Assembly (NCBI GenBank): GCA_934394515.1
Contig: CAKRRU010000048.1
Location: 1 to 17,625, forward strand
Reading direction: 5' to 3'
Length of the DNA stretch: 17,625 bases
DNA from: an uncultured Acetatifactor sp.
Lineage (GTDB): Bacteria > Bacillota > Clostridia > Lachnospirales > Lachnospiraceae
The position numbers and the translations under genes are program-made. The notes beneath the pieces were generated by a model. The model saw only the letters and a program-made list of their open reading frames with translations. It was not told where the DNA came from and ran no database searches. Shown one piece after another: positions 203-5,907 of this stretch. How positions within the stretch are numbered: position 1 is the first letter of the stretch; each line of letters starts with the position of its first letter.

Positions 203-916
203 TCAGACATTTGCAAGGCGCTGCAGAGCATGATCTGCAATCAGAGTAGAACAATGTTCATCCAGAAAAGTCCGGCTGGCGGCGGTAGAACGTCTGGGAA
301 CGCCGTATTCTGAAATTATATTGCAGACACGATCGAAAACATCACGGCTTTCAGTTCCCTGAGTAAGGACAAGGTAATACCCGACGGCCCCTTCTTCGTG
401 ATATAAAGTGCTGAGACCGCAGTAATGATTTCCTATTACAGCAGCCGCATTTATGACCTGATTCAGAGAATCCATACAGAACAGGCGGGAACGGACAGTA
501 TCGGTCTCTTCGGGAGCAGGAGCGGAAGGCGCATCTTTTGCGTTTTCTTCGTCCTGAATACGGCGGAACAGATCAAGAACTTCATCCGCAGAACCGGGCC
601 CGTCTTCGTCATCCATATCTTCGGTGACCGAGGGGGCAAAACGGGAAAAACGGGTATCAAGCTCTTCGGGATCTTCCACTTTGGTAATGATCAGTACAAT
701 ACAATCCGGATTCAGAGGAATTGCCTCGATCATCAGAGGGATATCTTCTGCCTCGAATCCGAATTCGAAGTTGGCCTGCTGCATCATGTCACGGAAGAGA
801 GATTTTGCTTTTTCCGTGCCGTAGGCAAGTTCACTTATTTTTAATTCGCGGCTTGCAAGATCCTCACGGGTCAGCGTGCAGCGAATCTGATTTTCATTTA
901 CTTTTTCTATTTTCAT
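203..916 (-). CDS. mecA: MecA-family adaptor protein for ClpC
   Basis: The product is 237 residues, within the usual MecA/YpbH range (about 210-250). Known members deliver substrates to the ClpC-ClpP protease and stimulate ClpC assembly; ComK is the classic substrate in Bacillus. The N-terminal part (about 1-85) begins MKIEKVNENQIRCTLTREDL and contains the typical segment ending in ITKVEDPEELDTRFSRFAP. A low-complexity acidic linker rich in D, E, P and A follows (about 95-140). The C-terminal ClpC-binding-like domain (about 143-237) contains LFCMDSLNQVINAA and YHEEGAVGYYLVL. ATG at 916 is chosen because an AAAGGAAG ribosome site lies nine bases upstream (926-933). It is monocistronic: a convergent gene lies downstream and a 500-base non-coding region upstream. 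The family call is confident; the substrates here are unknown. Confidence 0.92.
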   Translation of the reverse strand: MKIEKVNENQIRCTLTREDLASRELKISELAYGTEKAKSLFRDMMQQANFEFGFEAEDIPLMIEAIPLNPDCIVLIITKVEDPEELDTRFSRFAPSVTEDMDDEDGPGSADEVLDLFRRIQDEENAKDAPSAPAPEETDTVRSRLFCMDSLNQVINAAAVIGNHYCGLSTLYHEEGAVGYYLVLTQGTESRDVFDRVCNIISEYGVPRRSTAASRTFLDEHCSTLIADHALQRLANV

Positions 917-1027: not shown

Positions 1028-1056
1028 TTGCCAAATAAGAGAGCGCGGTGTATAAT
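1028..1056 (+). promoter_or_regulatory. Vegetative promoter for the 1063-1349 RNA
   Basis: TTGCCA (1028-1033), a 17-base spacer and TATAAT (1051-1056) make a near-consensus housekeeping promoter. The expected start is at 1063-1064, exactly the first base of the long helix described for the RNA candidate. Confidence 0.75.
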
Positions 1057-1062
1057 CCGACC

Positions 1063-1349
1063 TATAGATGCCTCTGATACTCCGGTGCAGAGAGGAGGCT
1101 GACAGTTCTCATATTTTCTTGTTGATTTACCAGGGAACGATTCGTTCCATTTCATCCCATTTTTATATTTATTATGCAGACAGCTATTGGTGTATTTGGG
1201 TGTTTACGTTACGGCAATCTGTAAAATATAGTATGGAGATGTCTTACAGGCATATACGTGCCCGGTCATAATATTTCAACAGATATTTTCACAATCATAA
1301 TTCCAACTTTTAATTTTTATTTTTACTAGCACTGTCAGAGGCATTTATA
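1063..1349 (+). ncRNA. Candidate structured RNA (287 nt) or long structured leader, class not recognised
   Basis: This segment fills most of the 524-base gap between mecA and the next gene. Its ends pair over 17 bp: bases 1063-1079 with 1333-1349, including ATGCCTCTGATA against TGTCAGAGGCAT and TATAG against TTATA. Only two pairs are G-U and there is no bulge. The predicted promoter start is at the first paired base. Inside are a perfect GGAACG/CGTTCC hairpin with a three-base loop (1134-1148), a CTGTAA/TTACAG stem (1219-1249) and a small CTCC/GGAG hairpin (1080-1097). The inside is A/T rich. No terminator with a T-run follows before the next gene, so it could be a processed RNA or the leader of the gene at 1441. 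I could not match it to 6S, tmRNA, SRP, RNase P, T-box or a riboswitch I know. Open frames inside lack ribosome sites. Confidence 0.55.
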
Positions 1350-1440
1350 CATGAAACGTACCTATATCCGGGAAGCAGCGTTTATTTAGAGTGTGTCACG
1401 AATACTTTTGGTCTGAGAATGCTGCAGACAGGAGGTGCCG

Positions 1441-1683
1441 GTGGAAAAAAAGAAAGGTGCAAAGCCCCTTAAGAAAGAAGAGATTTTCAGAAAAAATGTG
1501 GAAAACTACTTTCGGAGACTGCAAAAGAAAGGGGCGGAGCTGTATGTTGACGGGGAAAAGGTCTCACCGTCAAAGGCGGCAGAATACGCCGTCAGAGAAG
1601 AAAGCCCATATATGGCAGACTATATATTGGGAGAGCAGGGCGAAATCAGTCAGATCCGACTGGATAAAGTGGATCCGCAATAA
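1441..1683 (+). CDS. Small lysine-rich protein of unknown function
   Basis: An 80-residue protein with GTG start at 1441, chosen because GGAGG at 1431-1435 lies five bases upstream. The first third is very basic (MEKKKGAKPLKKEEIFRKNV) and likely helical. The rest reads as a compact domain with YVDGEKVSPSKAAEYAVREE and then ADYILGEQGEISQIRLDKV. The segment with a short beta turn (YVDGEKV) followed by an alanine-rich helix could be a small DNA- or protein-binding module, but I recognise no named family. There is no signal peptide, membrane segment or cysteine pair. It lies downstream of the 1063-1349 RNA with no obvious promoter of its own, so both may share one transcript. The start site and codon pattern support a real gene; function is unknown. 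Confidence 0.75.
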   Translation: MEKKKGAKPLKKEEIFRKNVENYFRRLQKKGAELYVDGEKVSPSKAAEYAVREESPYMADYILGEQGEISQIRLDKVDPQ

Positions 1684-1722: not shown

Positions 1723-1774
1723 GCACTGCAGGAATACAAAACGGGATTGCCTCTCTGGCTGTGTCCTGCAGTGT
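1723..1774. other. Inverted repeat downstream of the small basic protein gene
   Basis: Bases 1723-1733 (GCACTGCAGGA) pair with 1764-1774 over 11 bp with one G-U pair, leaving a 30-base loop. There is no T-run after it, so it is not a standard intrinsic terminator. It may stabilise the upstream mRNA end or end transcription weakly. Confidence 0.45.
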
Positions 1775-1796: not shown

Positions 1797-1826
1797 TTGT
1801 ATTATGGGTAGAAACTGTGATAGAAT
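1797..1826 (+). promoter_or_regulatory. Probable promoter for the GH18 gene
   Basis: TTGTAT (1797-1802), an 18-base spacer and TAGAAT (1821-1826). A start near 1833 would leave a leader of about 70 bases before the ATG at 1906. Confidence 0.5.
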
Positions 1827-1905
1827 AAGTCTGTTCATTTCGAAGAGAACAGAATGGAGAAAATGCAAGAAATATGCAGGCAGATGTCTGCGGATGGGAG
1901 CACAT

Positions 1906-3606
1906 ATGAAGAAAAAAGTATTACCGGTGATCGTGGCAATTTTGCTGATCCTCATTATCGGCGGTGGCGCACTGGGCAAAGTGCTGTTGGATAAGTATTC
2001 CTATAGCAAGGAAGAAGCAGACTGGAACGAATTTTATCAGGTGTCGGAAAATGATAAAAGTGCCATTATCCTGCAGGATGAAATGGTAGAAGAGCAGGCT
2101 CTTATAAAAGAGGGTGCCTGCTATTTTGATCTGGCAACTGTTCATAAATATATGAATGAAGTATTTTATGCGGATATGACAGAAAATCTGCTGCTGTATG
2201 CGACGCCGACAGAGGTGATCCGGACCGGCTTTGGCGGGAGCAGCTATACAACCACCGCAGGTGAGCAGAATACCGATTATGTAACCTGCTTTACGGAGGG
2301 AGATACTGTATATGTAGCGGCGGATTATGTAAAGCTGTTTACGAATTATTCTTATGAATGTTTTGACAGACATGTACAGGTTTATACGGAATGGGGCACC
2401 AGACAGGTGGCACAGTTGAAGAAGAATACAGCAGTCCGGTTAAGAGGCGGCGTGAAGAGTCCGATCCTCACACAGGCAGCGAAAGGCGATACGCTTGAAA
2501 TTTTGGAACAGATGGAGACCTGGAGCAAGGTAAAGACCGCAGATTCTGTAATCGGATATGTGGAGAATAAGCGTCTGGGGGATTTTACGGAAGAGACAGA
2601 GATGCCGGTAACCGATTACCAGGAGCCGGAATATACCTCTCTCACCAGTGACAGCAAGATCTGCCTCGGATGGCATTCCATCGGCGGTGTGGGCGGCAAT
2701 GATACTCTGTATTCCATGGTATCCGGTACGAAGGGCATGAATGTCATCGCACCCACCTGGTTCAGCCTGACGGATGAGAGCGGATCCATGCGCAGTTTTG
2801 GAACTACAGATTACGTGAACACAGCCCACAATATGGGCTTGCAGGTATGGGGCGTGGTGGATAACTTTAATTACGCCAATGAGACCGGCAATGCTGTCAG
2901 CACGCTCAATATGTTGTCCTCTACCACCAACAGACAGAACTTTATACAAAATGTGGTAAATGCGGCAGTCAGCCTGGGGCTGGACGGCATTAATGTGGAT
3001 TTTGAGCAGCTCAGTAGTGACTGCGGACCGCACTATGTGGAATTTATACGAGAGCTTTCCATTCAGTGCCGTAACAACGGGCTGGTATTGTCCATTGCCA
3101 ATTATGTACCTTTTAATTTTAATGACTATTACCGTCTGGACATTCAGGGAGAGGTGGCTGATTATGTCATCATCATGGGATATGATGAACACTGGCATGG
3201 AAGCAAAGATCCCGGAAGTGTGGCAAGTATCAGCTATGTGTCCGGAGGACTGGACAGAACCTTGCAGGAAGTTCCTGCCAACAAGGTGGTCAATGCGCTT
3301 CCGTTCTATACGATCCTGTGGAAAACAGAGGGAACGGATGTGACGGACGAATACGTCACCATGAACAATGAGGCAGACTTCATGAGCAGGGCAGGAGTGA
3401 CAGCGGAATGGGATGAAGAGACTTGTCAGAACTACGCAGAATGGACATCCGGCAGTGCTACCTATCAGATCTGGCTGGAGGATGCAGAATCCATCGCCGT
3501 AAAACTGAACATGATGACCACGAAAAATATCGGAGGTGCGGCTGTGTGGAGACTGGGATACGGCACCCAGGCAGCATGGGAACTCATTAATGCATACCTT
3601 CAGTAA
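1906..3606 (+). CDS. Membrane-anchored SH3b / glycoside hydrolase family 18 protein
   Basis: A 566-residue protein. ATG 1906 is chosen over an upstream in-frame ATG (1804) because GGGAG at 1896-1900 precedes it and it begins a clean signal anchor: KKK followed by a hydrophobic stretch at about 5-24. Residues about 60-165 resemble the copper-amine-oxidase-N-type stalk domain seen in Clostridial wall proteins, about 166-230 look like a bacterial SH3 domain (peptidoglycan binding), and 250-566 form a GH18 barrel. The GH18 signature DGINVDFE is intact: Asp360 to Glu367, with Glu367 as the predicted acid. The following YDEHW motif also fits. GH18 members of this architecture (YaaH/SleL-like) cleave N-acetylglucosaminyl bonds in spore or vegetative peptidoglycan; chitinase activity is less likely. 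It probably acts at the outer face of the membrane on wall glycans. It has its own promoter and ends at a strong terminator. Substrate is inferred, not shown. Confidence 0.88.
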   Translation: MKKKVLPVIVAILLILIIGGGALGKVLLDKYSYSKEEADWNEFYQVSENDKSAIILQDEMVEEQALIKEGACYFDLATVHKYMNEVFYADMTENLLLYATPTEVIRTGFGGSSYTTTAGEQNTDYVTCFTEGDTVYVAADYVKLFTNYSYECFDRHVQVYTEWGTRQVAQLKKNTAVRLRGGVKSPILTQAAKGDTLEILEQMETWSKVKTADSVIGYVENKRLGDFTEETEMPVTDYQEPEYTSLTSDSKICLGWHSIGGVGGNDTLYSMVSGTKGMNVIAPTWFSLTDESGSMRSFGTTDYVNTAHNMGLQVWGVVDNFNYANETGNAVSTLNMLSSTTNRQNFIQNVVNAAVSLGLDGINVDFEQLSSDCGPHYVEFIRELSIQCRNNGLVLSIANYVPFNFNDYYRLDIQGEVADYVIIMGYDEHWHGSKDPGSVASISYVSGGLDRTLQEVPANKVVNALPFYTILWKTEGTDVTDEYVTMNNEADFMSRAGVTAEWDEETCQNYAEWTSGSATYQIWLEDAESIAVKLNMMTTKNIGGAAVWRLGYGTQAAWELINAYLQ

Positions 3607-3817: not shown

Positions 3818-4051
3818 GAACTCCCGGAGCAGCAGCCCCTCGTGCAGGTGTCTGTCGGAGAGTGTTGATATTTTCTTAAGCAGTGGTGAGTAATCAGGGC
3901 GGAGCAAACACGATGTTTGCGACAGGCGGTCGGCGGCATGGATGTCGCCTGGAGCCGTGCCCGTCCTAATTAGAAACACTTTATCCACTGCTTTAGAAAA
4001 TTCACATTCGGAGACCGATACCTGCATGAGGGTCTGCTGCTCCGGGAGTTC
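3818..4051. repeat. 234-bp imperfect palindrome with nested hairpins
   Basis: The left arm starting GAACTCCCGGAGCAGCAG at 3818 is matched by the reverse complement of the right arm ending at 4051. Both then share CCCTCxTGCAGGT and, further in, AAGCAGTGG against CCACTG. Pairing continues inwards through TAAT/ATTA and AGGGCGG/CCGTCCT. The centre carries a perfect GCAAACA/TGTTTGC hairpin with a CGA loop (3904-3920) and a second hairpin, GGCGGC with GTCGCC (3932-3949). As RNA it would fold into a long rod ending in two hairpins. It begins 44 bases after the stop of the sortase substrate gene and lies before that operon's terminator, so it would be part of its 3' untranslated region. It has more GC than its left flank. 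It may be a small non-autonomous mobile element or a dispersed repeat, or a structured RNA; no copy elsewhere in the window. Confidence 0.65.
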
Positions 4052-4094: not shown

Positions 4095-4961
4095 TTACTG
4101 AACATATTTTCTGCGAACAGCATATCCGCCGATCAGGCATACCGCAGCTGCACCCAGGAACCAGACTGCCCTGGAAGTTTCCCCGGTCTTGGGAACATCA
4201 TCATATGCAGAAGAGGAAGCGGTGTTCTGAGCAGGCTGTGCGGGAGCAGTTGTCTGAGCAGGCTGTTCGGCAACAGGGGCAGGAGTCGCAGCAGAAGCCG
4301 CTGCGGTCTTGCTGTAGTACTGCCCGGCTGTTTTCAGAGAGCCGTCTTCAACGGTCAGCTTCCCTTGTGCGAAATTGTAAGCTTCATAGTATGTGAGCTG
4401 ATCACGGTTATCTTTTGCAATGAGATGATTTACAGTACCCAGACACCCGATATAAGCGTGAAGATTGTTCCCGGATTCATCTTCGGTACCGAGCATTTCC
4501 AGAGTATCTACATTATTGTTGAAGTTGGCTCTGGCATTACCGTACACATAAGCGTGAGAAACATCACCGTTAATTGCTGCAGTGGTGTTTGCCAGGACAA
4601 AGACATTGTCATAACCGTTTGCATAAACTACAGCTGTTTCTCCTGCGGAGGATCTCACGGTCAGATTGCCTAACCGGACAGATAATTTCAGAGGCTTTGA
4701 ATTGCCGGATCCGTTATTGTTATCAACGACAACATAATCCCCATCTTTAATGCTCTGCTGCAGATAGTACAGATCCCGCTCCGATGCTTCATCGGACCAG
4801 CTGGATGCCTGCTTGTACATCCAATCTCCTTTTTCAGAGGAATAACTGACAACGTAGGTGACAGGTTCTGCAGCTTTTACCGTAAGCTTTCCCGGACCGG
4901 GAACAGTAAGGCATACAGCAGCGACCGTGAGCAGTGCGACGAACTTTTTGAGTCTCTTCAT
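4095..4961 (-). CDS. Sortase-anchored surface protein with VPKTG sorting signal
   Basis: A 288-residue secreted protein. ATG 4961 is chosen because CCTCCT on the plus strand (AGGAGG, 4966-4972 region) lies just upstream and the protein then starts with MKRLKKFVALLTVAAVCL, a typical signal peptide, with probable cleavage after VKAA. Residues about 30-200 are rich in short beta-strand-like units with repeated V/I/L-x-V and N/G turns (for example LSVRLGNLTVRSS, VFVLANTTAAINGD, AYVYGNARANFNN), suggesting a beta-helix or beta-roll. A P/A/Q/T-rich spacer (about 222-252) would cross the wall. The C-terminal signal is VPKTG at 256-260, a hydrophobic stretch and a RRK tail. It starts 25 bases after the sortase stop, so both are one operon and this is very likely that sortase's substrate. 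Ligand and role are unknown. Confidence 0.85.
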   Translation of the reverse strand: MKRLKKFVALLTVAAVCLTVPGPGKLTVKAAEPVTYVVSYSSEKGDWMYKQASSWSDEASERDLYYLQQSIKDGDYVVVDNNNGSGNSKPLKLSVRLGNLTVRSSAGETAVVYANGYDNVFVLANTTAAINGDVSHAYVYGNARANFNNNVDTLEMLGTEDESGNNLHAYIGCLGTVNHLIAKDNRDQLTYYEAYNFAQGKLTVEDGSLKTAGQYYSKTAAASAATPAPVAEQPAQTTAPAQPAQNTASSSAYDDVPKTGETSRAVWFLGAAAVCLIGGYAVRRKYVQ

Positions 4962-4986
4962 AGGCAACCTCCTGATAGTCTGTGAA

Positions 4987-5871
4987 TTATTCCTGCACGG
5001 GAAGATAAAAATCACCGGGCTCCACTTCCTTTGCGACCACGACAAACCGTCCCTGCTCTACATGGTATACACAAGTGGATAACGTAAGAAAATGATCTCC
5101 AAACTCTGCGGTAACACCGGTGTCGTACTGGGATAATTGTTTAATATTGTTATAAAAGTCATCAAATTCTTCCAGAGTGTCGGCCTGGAAAAATTTGTAG
5201 AACTTAAATACCTCATCGGTTTTTCTGTATACCTGGGAGCGGAAGACAGCGATCACTTCATAATTGCGCTGACACTCTTCGGTGTACAGGATGATATTTT
5301 TATGTTTTTCGTAGAAAGCCTGATCCTCGTAATCTGTCAGGTTACCGAACATGGCACCGGATTTCATATTGTGTCCGTGAATAATGAGGTTTGTAGTCAA
5401 AGGAGCCAGACAGCTGTCAGCGTCCAATAGCAGACAGCCGTTTTTATTCTCACTGCCGTCAAAAGCACGATAGAGATAATAGGTCTCATCTTCGGGAGTC
5501 CACATGACAGGATAGTCAATATTGGTCCCCGGAATCCGGAGCCAGGCAGCCATGTCCTTGTTGGCAAGAAAACTGTCGGCATAAGGATTGGCAATACGGT
5601 CAATGGATTCTGATTCACCGGAAGAAAGAGTCTCACTTATGGTGGATCCGGTACCGGGTTCCGAAGCGACAGTTTCCTTTGCTGCAGAAGATTCTACAGA
5701 GGAAGTTTCGGCGGCAGCATCTGTCGAAACCGTCGGACGCACTGCATCCACAGCCTCCTCCATGTGCCGGTCCTCCAGGCGGCCTTTTATAGACAGAATC
5801 ACCGCTGTCAGAACACAGATCCCAGCCAGAACAAACAAAATAATAGAAAGAACTTTTTTATCTGATTTCAT
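4987..5871 (-). CDS. srtB: Class B sortase
   Basis: A 294-residue membrane transpeptidase that cleaves a C-terminal sorting signal and attaches the protein to peptidoglycan. A single membrane helix (about 6-27) is followed by a 70-residue S/T/E-rich linker and the catalytic domain. Landmarks are LIIHGHNM with His165/His167, then GAMFGNLTDY, TLSTC with the nucleophile Cys267, and GRFVVVAKE with Arg275. The HGH...GAMFG and YxxF-type insert and the TLSTCxY motif point to class B rather than class A, C or D. Start: ATG 5871 begins MKSDKKVLSI; an upstream in-frame ATG at 5907 would add 12 residues. Neither has a good ribosome site, and a promoter predicts transcription to start at the A of ATG 5871 (see separate entry). 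Clostridial class B enzymes known to accept PxTG motifs fit the VPKTG signal next door. Confidence 0.92.
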   Translation of the reverse strand: MKSDKKVLSIILFVLAGICVLTAVILSIKGRLEDRHMEEAVDAVRPTVSTDAAAETSSVESSAAKETVASEPGTGSTISETLSSGESESIDRIANPYADSFLANKDMAAWLRIPGTNIDYPVMWTPEDETYYLYRAFDGSENKNGCLLLDADSCLAPLTTNLIIHGHNMKSGAMFGNLTDYEDQAFYEKHKNIILYTEECQRNYEVIAVFRSQVYRKTDEVFKFYKFFQADTLEEFDDFYNNIKQLSQYDTGVTAEFGDHFLTLSTCVYHVEQGRFVVVAKEVEPGDFYLPVQE

Positions 5872-5877
5872 ATATTT

Positions 5878-5907
5878 ATTATACTCTGAATCCGTGATAC
5901 CATGCAA
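5878..5907 (-). promoter_or_regulatory. Sortase promoter predicting a leaderless mRNA
   Basis: On the minus strand TTGCAT (5907-5902), an 18-base spacer and TATAAT (5883-5878) lie so that the seventh base after the -10 is the A of ATG 5871. No Shine-Dalgarno sequence is present between the -10 and the ATG. If used, the message would have no leader. Confidence 0.6.

Follow-up and report, generated by a model that had tools for sequence, protein, structure and literature searches.

A structured RNA between mecA and a GH18 gene in Lachnospiraceae

The DNA analysed here, a stretch of 17,625 nucleotides from an uncultured Acetatifactor sp. (the window), carries between mecA and a small gene a 287-nt segment whose RNA structure we consider near certain from comparative evidence; the mechanism is less certain. 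The shape of the RNA has probably been kept by evolution in dozens of related species. A comparison of loci revealed the order of the elements: divergent mecA on one side, and on the other strand the RNA, an optional small gene, and a GH18 gene. Our preferred reading, held with modest confidence, is that this is a Lachnospiraceae RNA with a function of its own, and that in loci with the small gene it is also the leader of that gene. The transcription, 3′ end, and function of the RNA we infer from the sequence. The Lachnospiraceae are a major family of gut bacteria. Large structured bacterial RNAs of undetermined function, such as raiA, OLE, GOLLD, and ROOL, are few, and work on them has been informative. 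The features of the locus are collected in Table 1.

Table 1. Coordinates of the features at the locus, in window positions
Feature	Position	Strand	Evidence or remark
mecA, divergent neighbour	203..916	-	Pfam PF05389, 239.8 bits
Sigma-A type promoter, TTGCCA-17-TATAAT	1028..1056	+	consensus match; same place in relatives
Structured RNA core, 287 nt	1063..1349	+	covariance model R1, 202.9 bits (the window itself is among the model's 18 rows); fold z −4.2
P1 5′ arm, at predicted transcription start	1063..1079	+	two-sided changes, shuffle test
P1b 5′ arm, GUGC (mostly GUAC in relatives)	1085..1088	+	pairs with 1329-1332
Shine-Dalgarno-like element, AGGAGG (RRGGAGGC in most relatives)	1093..1098	+	alignments
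P2 5′ arm, UGUUGA	1120..1125	+	pairs with 1276-1281
P2a hairpin, GGAAC-GAUUC-GUUCC	1134..1148	+	4 of 5 pairs with two-sided changes
P3 5′ arm, CAUC (CAUCCUU in many relatives)	1153..1156	+	pairs with 1238-1241; tentative
P3 3′ arm, GAUG	1238..1241	+	pairs with 1153-1156; tentative
Highly conserved block, GAUGUCUUACAGG	1238..1250	+	alignments; pattern
P4 hairpin, apical length varies in relatives	1247..1264	+	tentative
Mostly unpaired conserved block, UUUCAAC..UUUUCAC..AUAAUUC	1274..1303	+	alignments
P2 3′ arm, UCAACA	1276..1281	+	pairs with 1120-1125
P1b 3′ arm, GCAC	1329..1332	+	pairs with 1085-1088
P1 3′ arm	1333..1349	+	two-sided changes at 13 of the 14 pairs counted; 98.1% of cells paired
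Conserved tail, GUCACGAAUACUUUUGGUC (UAUAUCAC-n-CUUUUGG in relatives)	1395..1413	+	pattern
Shine-Dalgarno sequence of small gene, AGGAGG	1430..1435	+	sequence
Small gene, 80 aa from a likely GTG start at 1441	1441..1683	+	42 homologues; listed ORF 1435-1683, 82 aa
GH18/SH3 gene, conserved neighbour, likely start at 1906 (ORF 1804-3606)	1906..3606	+	Pfam PF00704

The promoter and the helix at its predicted start were both located where an earlier note on this DNA had placed them. TTGCCA occupies positions 1028-1033 and TATAAT positions 1051-1056, with a 17-nt spacer and 11 of 12 consensus matches. It is the best-scoring of four promoter-like sites within positions 900-1900, where shuffled sequences average 2.6 sites. 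The P1 helix begins 7 nt behind the −10 box, at the 5′ end of the RNA as predicted from the promoter consensus. As the note had described, it pairs 1063-1079 with 1333-1349 without a bulge, in 17 pairs of which two are G.U. Among helices spanning 100-420 nt in the 518-nt gap from mecA to the small gene it is the longest; in 60 dinucleotide shuffles of this gap the longest helix averaged 11.4 bp, and none exceeded 14 bp. The 287-nt segment folds at −73.6 kcal/mol (z −4.2; reverse strand z −2.9). A different hairpin, in which the 5′ arm of P1 would pair with the RRGGAGG element (GCCUC/GAGGC in the window), was rejected by eye, because the element is kept in distant relatives while the sequence of the P1 arm is quite different there.

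A genome scan was run with the window's MecA, and the best 80 of 257 relatives were used. The closest, L001 and L002 (Lachnospiraceae bacterium GAM79), have MecA proteins 83-84% identical to that of the window. A covariance model, R1, was built from 18 sequences (the window and 17 loci). It found the RNA in 79 of these 80 MecA loci, 77 of them at E ≤ 0.01, with L060 and L074 matching only at E 0.3-0.4; in the 80th locus, L049, the RNA was recognised by eye. Sixty-two of the 79 R1-positive loci lie outside the training rows of the model, and in all 79 the RNA is on the strand divergent from mecA, which encodes the ClpC adaptor MecA. Whole-genome searches of four genomes gave one strong copy in each. 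With R1, which is tuned to close relatives, a scan of 250 genomes of the family that scored seven candidates per genome at first look gave five matches, including the centre genome. R1 also matched four of 30 mecA loci from the family at E ≤ 1e-4; two of the four are apparently already in the MecA set (G001 is the genome of L002). A sequence-pattern search of 397 family genomes returned no matches, with a pattern that also misses the RNA-bearing G001.

The arrangement of promoter and helix recurs upstream of mecA in the relatives, as TTGNNN-17-TATAAT and a long-range helix that begins at the predicted start. In 65 of 81 sequences (the 80 MecA loci and the window) the strongest long-range helix began 0-14 nt downstream of the best −10 box; 2000 permutations of the helix positions among loci gave on average 11.6 such sequences and at most 23. 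The meeting of promoter and helix, on which the earlier note had built its case, is a recurrent feature of the locus. Among the 30 family mecA loci eight passed the same test; this result is suggestive only, because the permuted maximum was also eight (mean 2.4; 2000 permutations).

To assess the structure, 27 of the 81 sequences were aligned, and 41 pairs were drawn from the same alignment, partly by eye. Standard pairs made up 94.5% of the structure, and 23 of the 41 pairs showed two-sided changes; shuffles averaged 10.1 such pairs, and none of 500 reached 23. When the structure was slid along the alignment, a control that favours it since it came from the same alignment, 30-40% of cells were paired as compared with 94.5% in register. 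P1 carries most of the two-sided changes (13 of 14 pairs), and its cells comprise 318 Watson-Crick, 41 G.U, 2 A.C, and 5 other combinations. The two-sided changes, together with the excess of G.U over A.C, show that selection acts on the RNA of the + strand. The P1 arms of one sequence form a duplex of −23.2 kcal/mol where the small gene is present (49 sequences) and of −20.9 kcal/mol where it is absent (31 sequences); arms swapped between species gave −14.8 kcal/mol in all 80 and −13.4 kcal/mol among the 31. In distant relatives the P1 sequences differ and still pair, e.g., GAAGAUAGUAU/AUACUAUCUUC in L101 and GAGGUGCCAAUAUUAGU/ACUGAUAUUGGCAUCUC in L105. The earlier note had named uncompensated changes in the two arms as evidence against a real structured RNA. 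The covariation analysis of the 17-bp helix revealed instead that both arms change with compensation across the homologous loci.

Within the domain, comparison supports P2a, like P1, as RNA pairing, while P1b and P2 pair but hardly vary: 100% of P1b cells are paired, with two-sided change at one of four pairs, and 97.5% of P2 cells, with three of six pairs invariant. P3 (88.9% of cells paired) and P4 (86.9%), each with two-sided changes at two of six pairs, are weaker than P1. The earlier note had also proposed two internal hairpins. The one at 1134-1148 is P2a and was borne out; the other, at 1219-1249, was discarded, its arms being invariant in the two closest relatives and not conserved beyond them. 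The core block GAUGUCUUACAGG was found by pattern in 71 of 80 loci. The Shine-Dalgarno-like element at 1093-1098 is conserved in distant forms of the RNA too, and no conserved start codon was seen behind it in the alignments.

The end of the RNA that the earlier note had implied, at 1349, is not supported: a conserved tail lies beyond it, and no intrinsic terminator was found within 900-1900, a result that also weighs against our preferred reading. A tightened pattern detected the tail in 68 of 80 sequences, and from P1 to its start there are 3-104 nt, with a median of 35; a looser pattern gave 69 sequences, one of them (L058) apparently spurious. Among the 12 misses, L001, L033, and the L068 group carry a degenerate form recognised by eye, and L002 does not. 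That the tail is missing from L002, which is closely related to the window and has the small gene, is counted against our preferred reading. Directly behind P1 in L002, at the expected site of the tail, inverted repeats AACTATTCAGA..TCTGAATAGTT were observed. The RRGGAGG element and the CUUUU tail are complementary, and the element is the best partner of the tail in 42 of 66 RNAs as compared with 27% for shuffled tails. In the 66 of 80 sequences that could be scored, the own pairing (−8.90) matched the permuted one (−8.93; fraction 0.59), and no covariation was found between element and tail.

A gene of 70-80 amino acids follows the RNA in 48 of the 79 RNA loci, and its ribosome site lies behind the tail. 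In its protein family G, E, and YMxD are invariant in sets of 20 and 36 aligned rows. The protein had no Pfam or NCBIfam match over the cut-off and no PDB sequence match below E 0.5. AlphaFold2 predicted an alpha-beta-alpha-beta-beta arrangement with a mean pLDDT of 84; compared with the PDB, this predicted fold had no match at E ≤ 0.001, and we therefore draw no function from it. The gene family is a trait of the Lachnospiraceae, found in 67 of 120 sampled genomes of the family; among 196 genomes of the class two have it, the centre genome G001 and G265, the latter also in the 397-genome family sample.

These observations bear on a reading of the RNA as a sensory leader, riboswitch-like or protein-binding, that would act on the small gene purely in cis, with translation set by the region of tail and Shine-Dalgarno sequence. 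Beside the frequent presence of the gene behind the RNA and the spread of its family, this reading is favoured by small-gene loci in which mecA is not in view. Divergent mecA was found within 1 kb in 22 of 28 small-gene loci; of the other six, two (L139 and L145) are contig ends. At L145, where mecA may lie past the contig end, the promoter, P1-like arms, the core block, and the tail stand upstream of the small gene; L153 and L151 have partial tails only, and L146 has the promoter and the GGAGG element with the helix placed otherwise. Such traces tie the RNA to the small gene and count against our preferred reading. A leader of this gene would be expected to have the gene behind it, and in 31 of 80 scored taxa the gene is absent while the RNA is kept (49 have it; the 31 include L010, which ends at a contig edge). 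On a quick MecA tree its presence and absence require at least seven changes, four of them forced by starred branches. In the loci without the gene P1 remains paired and the tail is kept in 30 of 31, as compared with 38 of 49 with the gene, which makes a leader for the small gene alone unlikely. Against it stand also the apparent promoter of GH18 and the finding of neither a terminator nor a covarying alternative pairing. We consider the purely cis-acting leader rather unlikely, and nevertheless the foremost of the alternatives.

Of the 79 RNA loci all but L010 (78 loci) have GH18 downstream on the strand of the RNA, 199-638 nt behind P1 where the small gene is absent. This arrangement would suit a leader for the whole unit, with read-through into GH18 as the true target and the small gene as an optional insert. 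A separate promoter-like site (at least 9 of 12 matches) was found before GH18 in 57 of 78 loci, whereas shuffles gave a mean of 12.0 and a maximum of 21. The RNA, with the small gene, is therefore plausibly a separate unit, and we regard a leader for GH18 as improbable.

Several further elements were noticed around GH18. An operator resembling GTCAAAATTGGTAATGAC, within two substitutions, occurs in 26 of the 78 GH18 upstream stretches of 130 nt, e.g., in L043 (4342-4370, − strand), L023, and L068. It is accompanied by a TAGAAT-type −10 box and in some cases has an inverted repeat behind it; the site looks like a regulated GH18 promoter. In the window an inverted repeat, GCACTGCAGGA..TCCTGCAGTG, lies behind the small gene at 1723-1773 (+ strand) and has no T run; it is a possible boundary element. 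Downstream of GH18, at 3853-4016 (+ strand), the window carries a TwoAYGGAY RNA (RF01731; 106.5 bits, with the gathering score at 43). A sortase gene (Pfam PF04203) occupies 4987-5907 on the − strand. The adjoining gene for a 316-aa protein (4095-5045, − strand) had no Pfam match, and the C-terminus of its product resembles a sortase signal.

A 17-bp inverted repeat spanning 287 nt beside a promoter could also belong to an invertible or mobile element and act as DNA; the constant orientation to mecA in all 79 loci found, the 41 G.U against 2 A.C cells, unexpected for a DNA repeat, and arms that differ between distant relatives yet stay complementary leave this reading hardly any probability, and we regard it as refuted as far as sequence can do so. 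A coding region is the least credible of all: an open frame of 67 aa (1068-1271) diverges and meets stops in the two closest relatives, L001 and L002.

We return to the preferred reading, in which the RNA works in its own right and, where the small gene exists, is also its leader. The complementarity of P1 and the tail in loci without the gene, with the promoter-like site of GH18, together argue that the RNA is maintained for what it does itself and not merely as a leader of the small gene, and the choice between a non-coding RNA and a leader leans accordingly. From the sigma-A-type promoter would come a structured RNA that begins exactly at the base of P1. P1, extended by P1b, would close a domain that comprises P2, the P2a hairpin, a short P3, the P4 hairpin, and long stretches of conserved sequence that are unpaired as drawn; the tail UAUAUCAC-n-CUUUUGG would follow behind P1 at the distances given above. 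By analogy with raiA/ModT, the RNA may act on its own, probably as a stable RNA or RNP in trans. Where the small gene exists, the spacing of tail, Shine-Dalgarno sequence, and start codon suggests that the same transcript would double as its 5′ leader. That the RRGGAGG element pairs with the CUUUU tail, possibly in competition for the Shine-Dalgarno sequence of the gene, is a guess. We tentatively propose, as something that may well prove otherwise, an undescribed class of large trans-acting structured RNA, characteristic of the Lachnospiraceae, between mecA and GH18 with an optional small partner protein. A link to the ribosome is possible through the conserved Shine-Dalgarno-like element without a start codon. 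The RNA is connected with a small uncharacterised protein family of the Lachnospiraceae. The natural absences of the small gene separate the function of the RNA from that of a leader, and if the proposal is true, a genetic test would be direct in a culturable commensal; Acetatifactor muris DSM 23669 (L029) and Lachnospiraceae bacterium GAM79 (L002) are two such bacteria that carry the RNA.

The earlier note had recognised no known class in this segment, and the comparison with Rfam 15 agrees with it. No catalogued family matches the RNA, either in the window or in the 13 relatives searched (of 80): the only match of the window at the gathering score is the TwoAYGGAY RNA, outside the RNA region, and the 13 loci, searched whole, gave none. 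At E ≤ 10, positions 900-1900 gave three matches, to a microRNA (0.28), sRNA P31 (7.9), and a snoRNA (7). None of them covers the core on the strand of the RNA, and all are at chance level; the first is raised by the inverted repeat at 1723-1773. L027 and L038 gave two matches each at E ≤ 5, with a best E of 2.4, also at chance level. ARAGORN found no tRNA or tmRNA gene in the window. The raiA model RF03072 had no match at E ≤ 10 within 900-1900 and none in four RNA-bearing genomes, in a search in which the control genomes gave none either. Literature searches, and a term search of the main texts of PMC8040213, PMC11109978, and PMC8632094, did not find a description of the RNA or its locus; the main text of PMC11109978 has no word beginning with mecA, Lachno, Roseburia, Blautia, or Butyrivibrio. 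A transcription-start map is available for Clostridium phytofermentans (PMC5171806).

Among known systems, orphan riboswitch-type leaders share with this RNA a complex fold before a conserved gene with its Shine-Dalgarno sequence; unlike them, the RNA and its tail are kept without the gene. A long terminal helix closes 6S RNA (RF00013), which is a stable RNA, and such a helix closes the RNA here too; RF00013 has no match here, whereas 6S RNA was found over the cut-off elsewhere in all four genomes tested. The smtA motif, as one of several large ncRNAs of this kind, is likewise a large RNA class from comparative genomics with undetermined function (PMC11109978). The nearest precedent is raiA/ModT, by analogy and not by membership. 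The RF03072 model has 209 positions as compared with 287 nt here, and raiA has gene neighbours other than those described above. Like the RNA of this work, for which the promoter is predicted, raiA/ModT is a structured RNA of Bacillota behind a sigma-A promoter; it was first proposed to be a riboswitch and acts in trans (PMC11706538).
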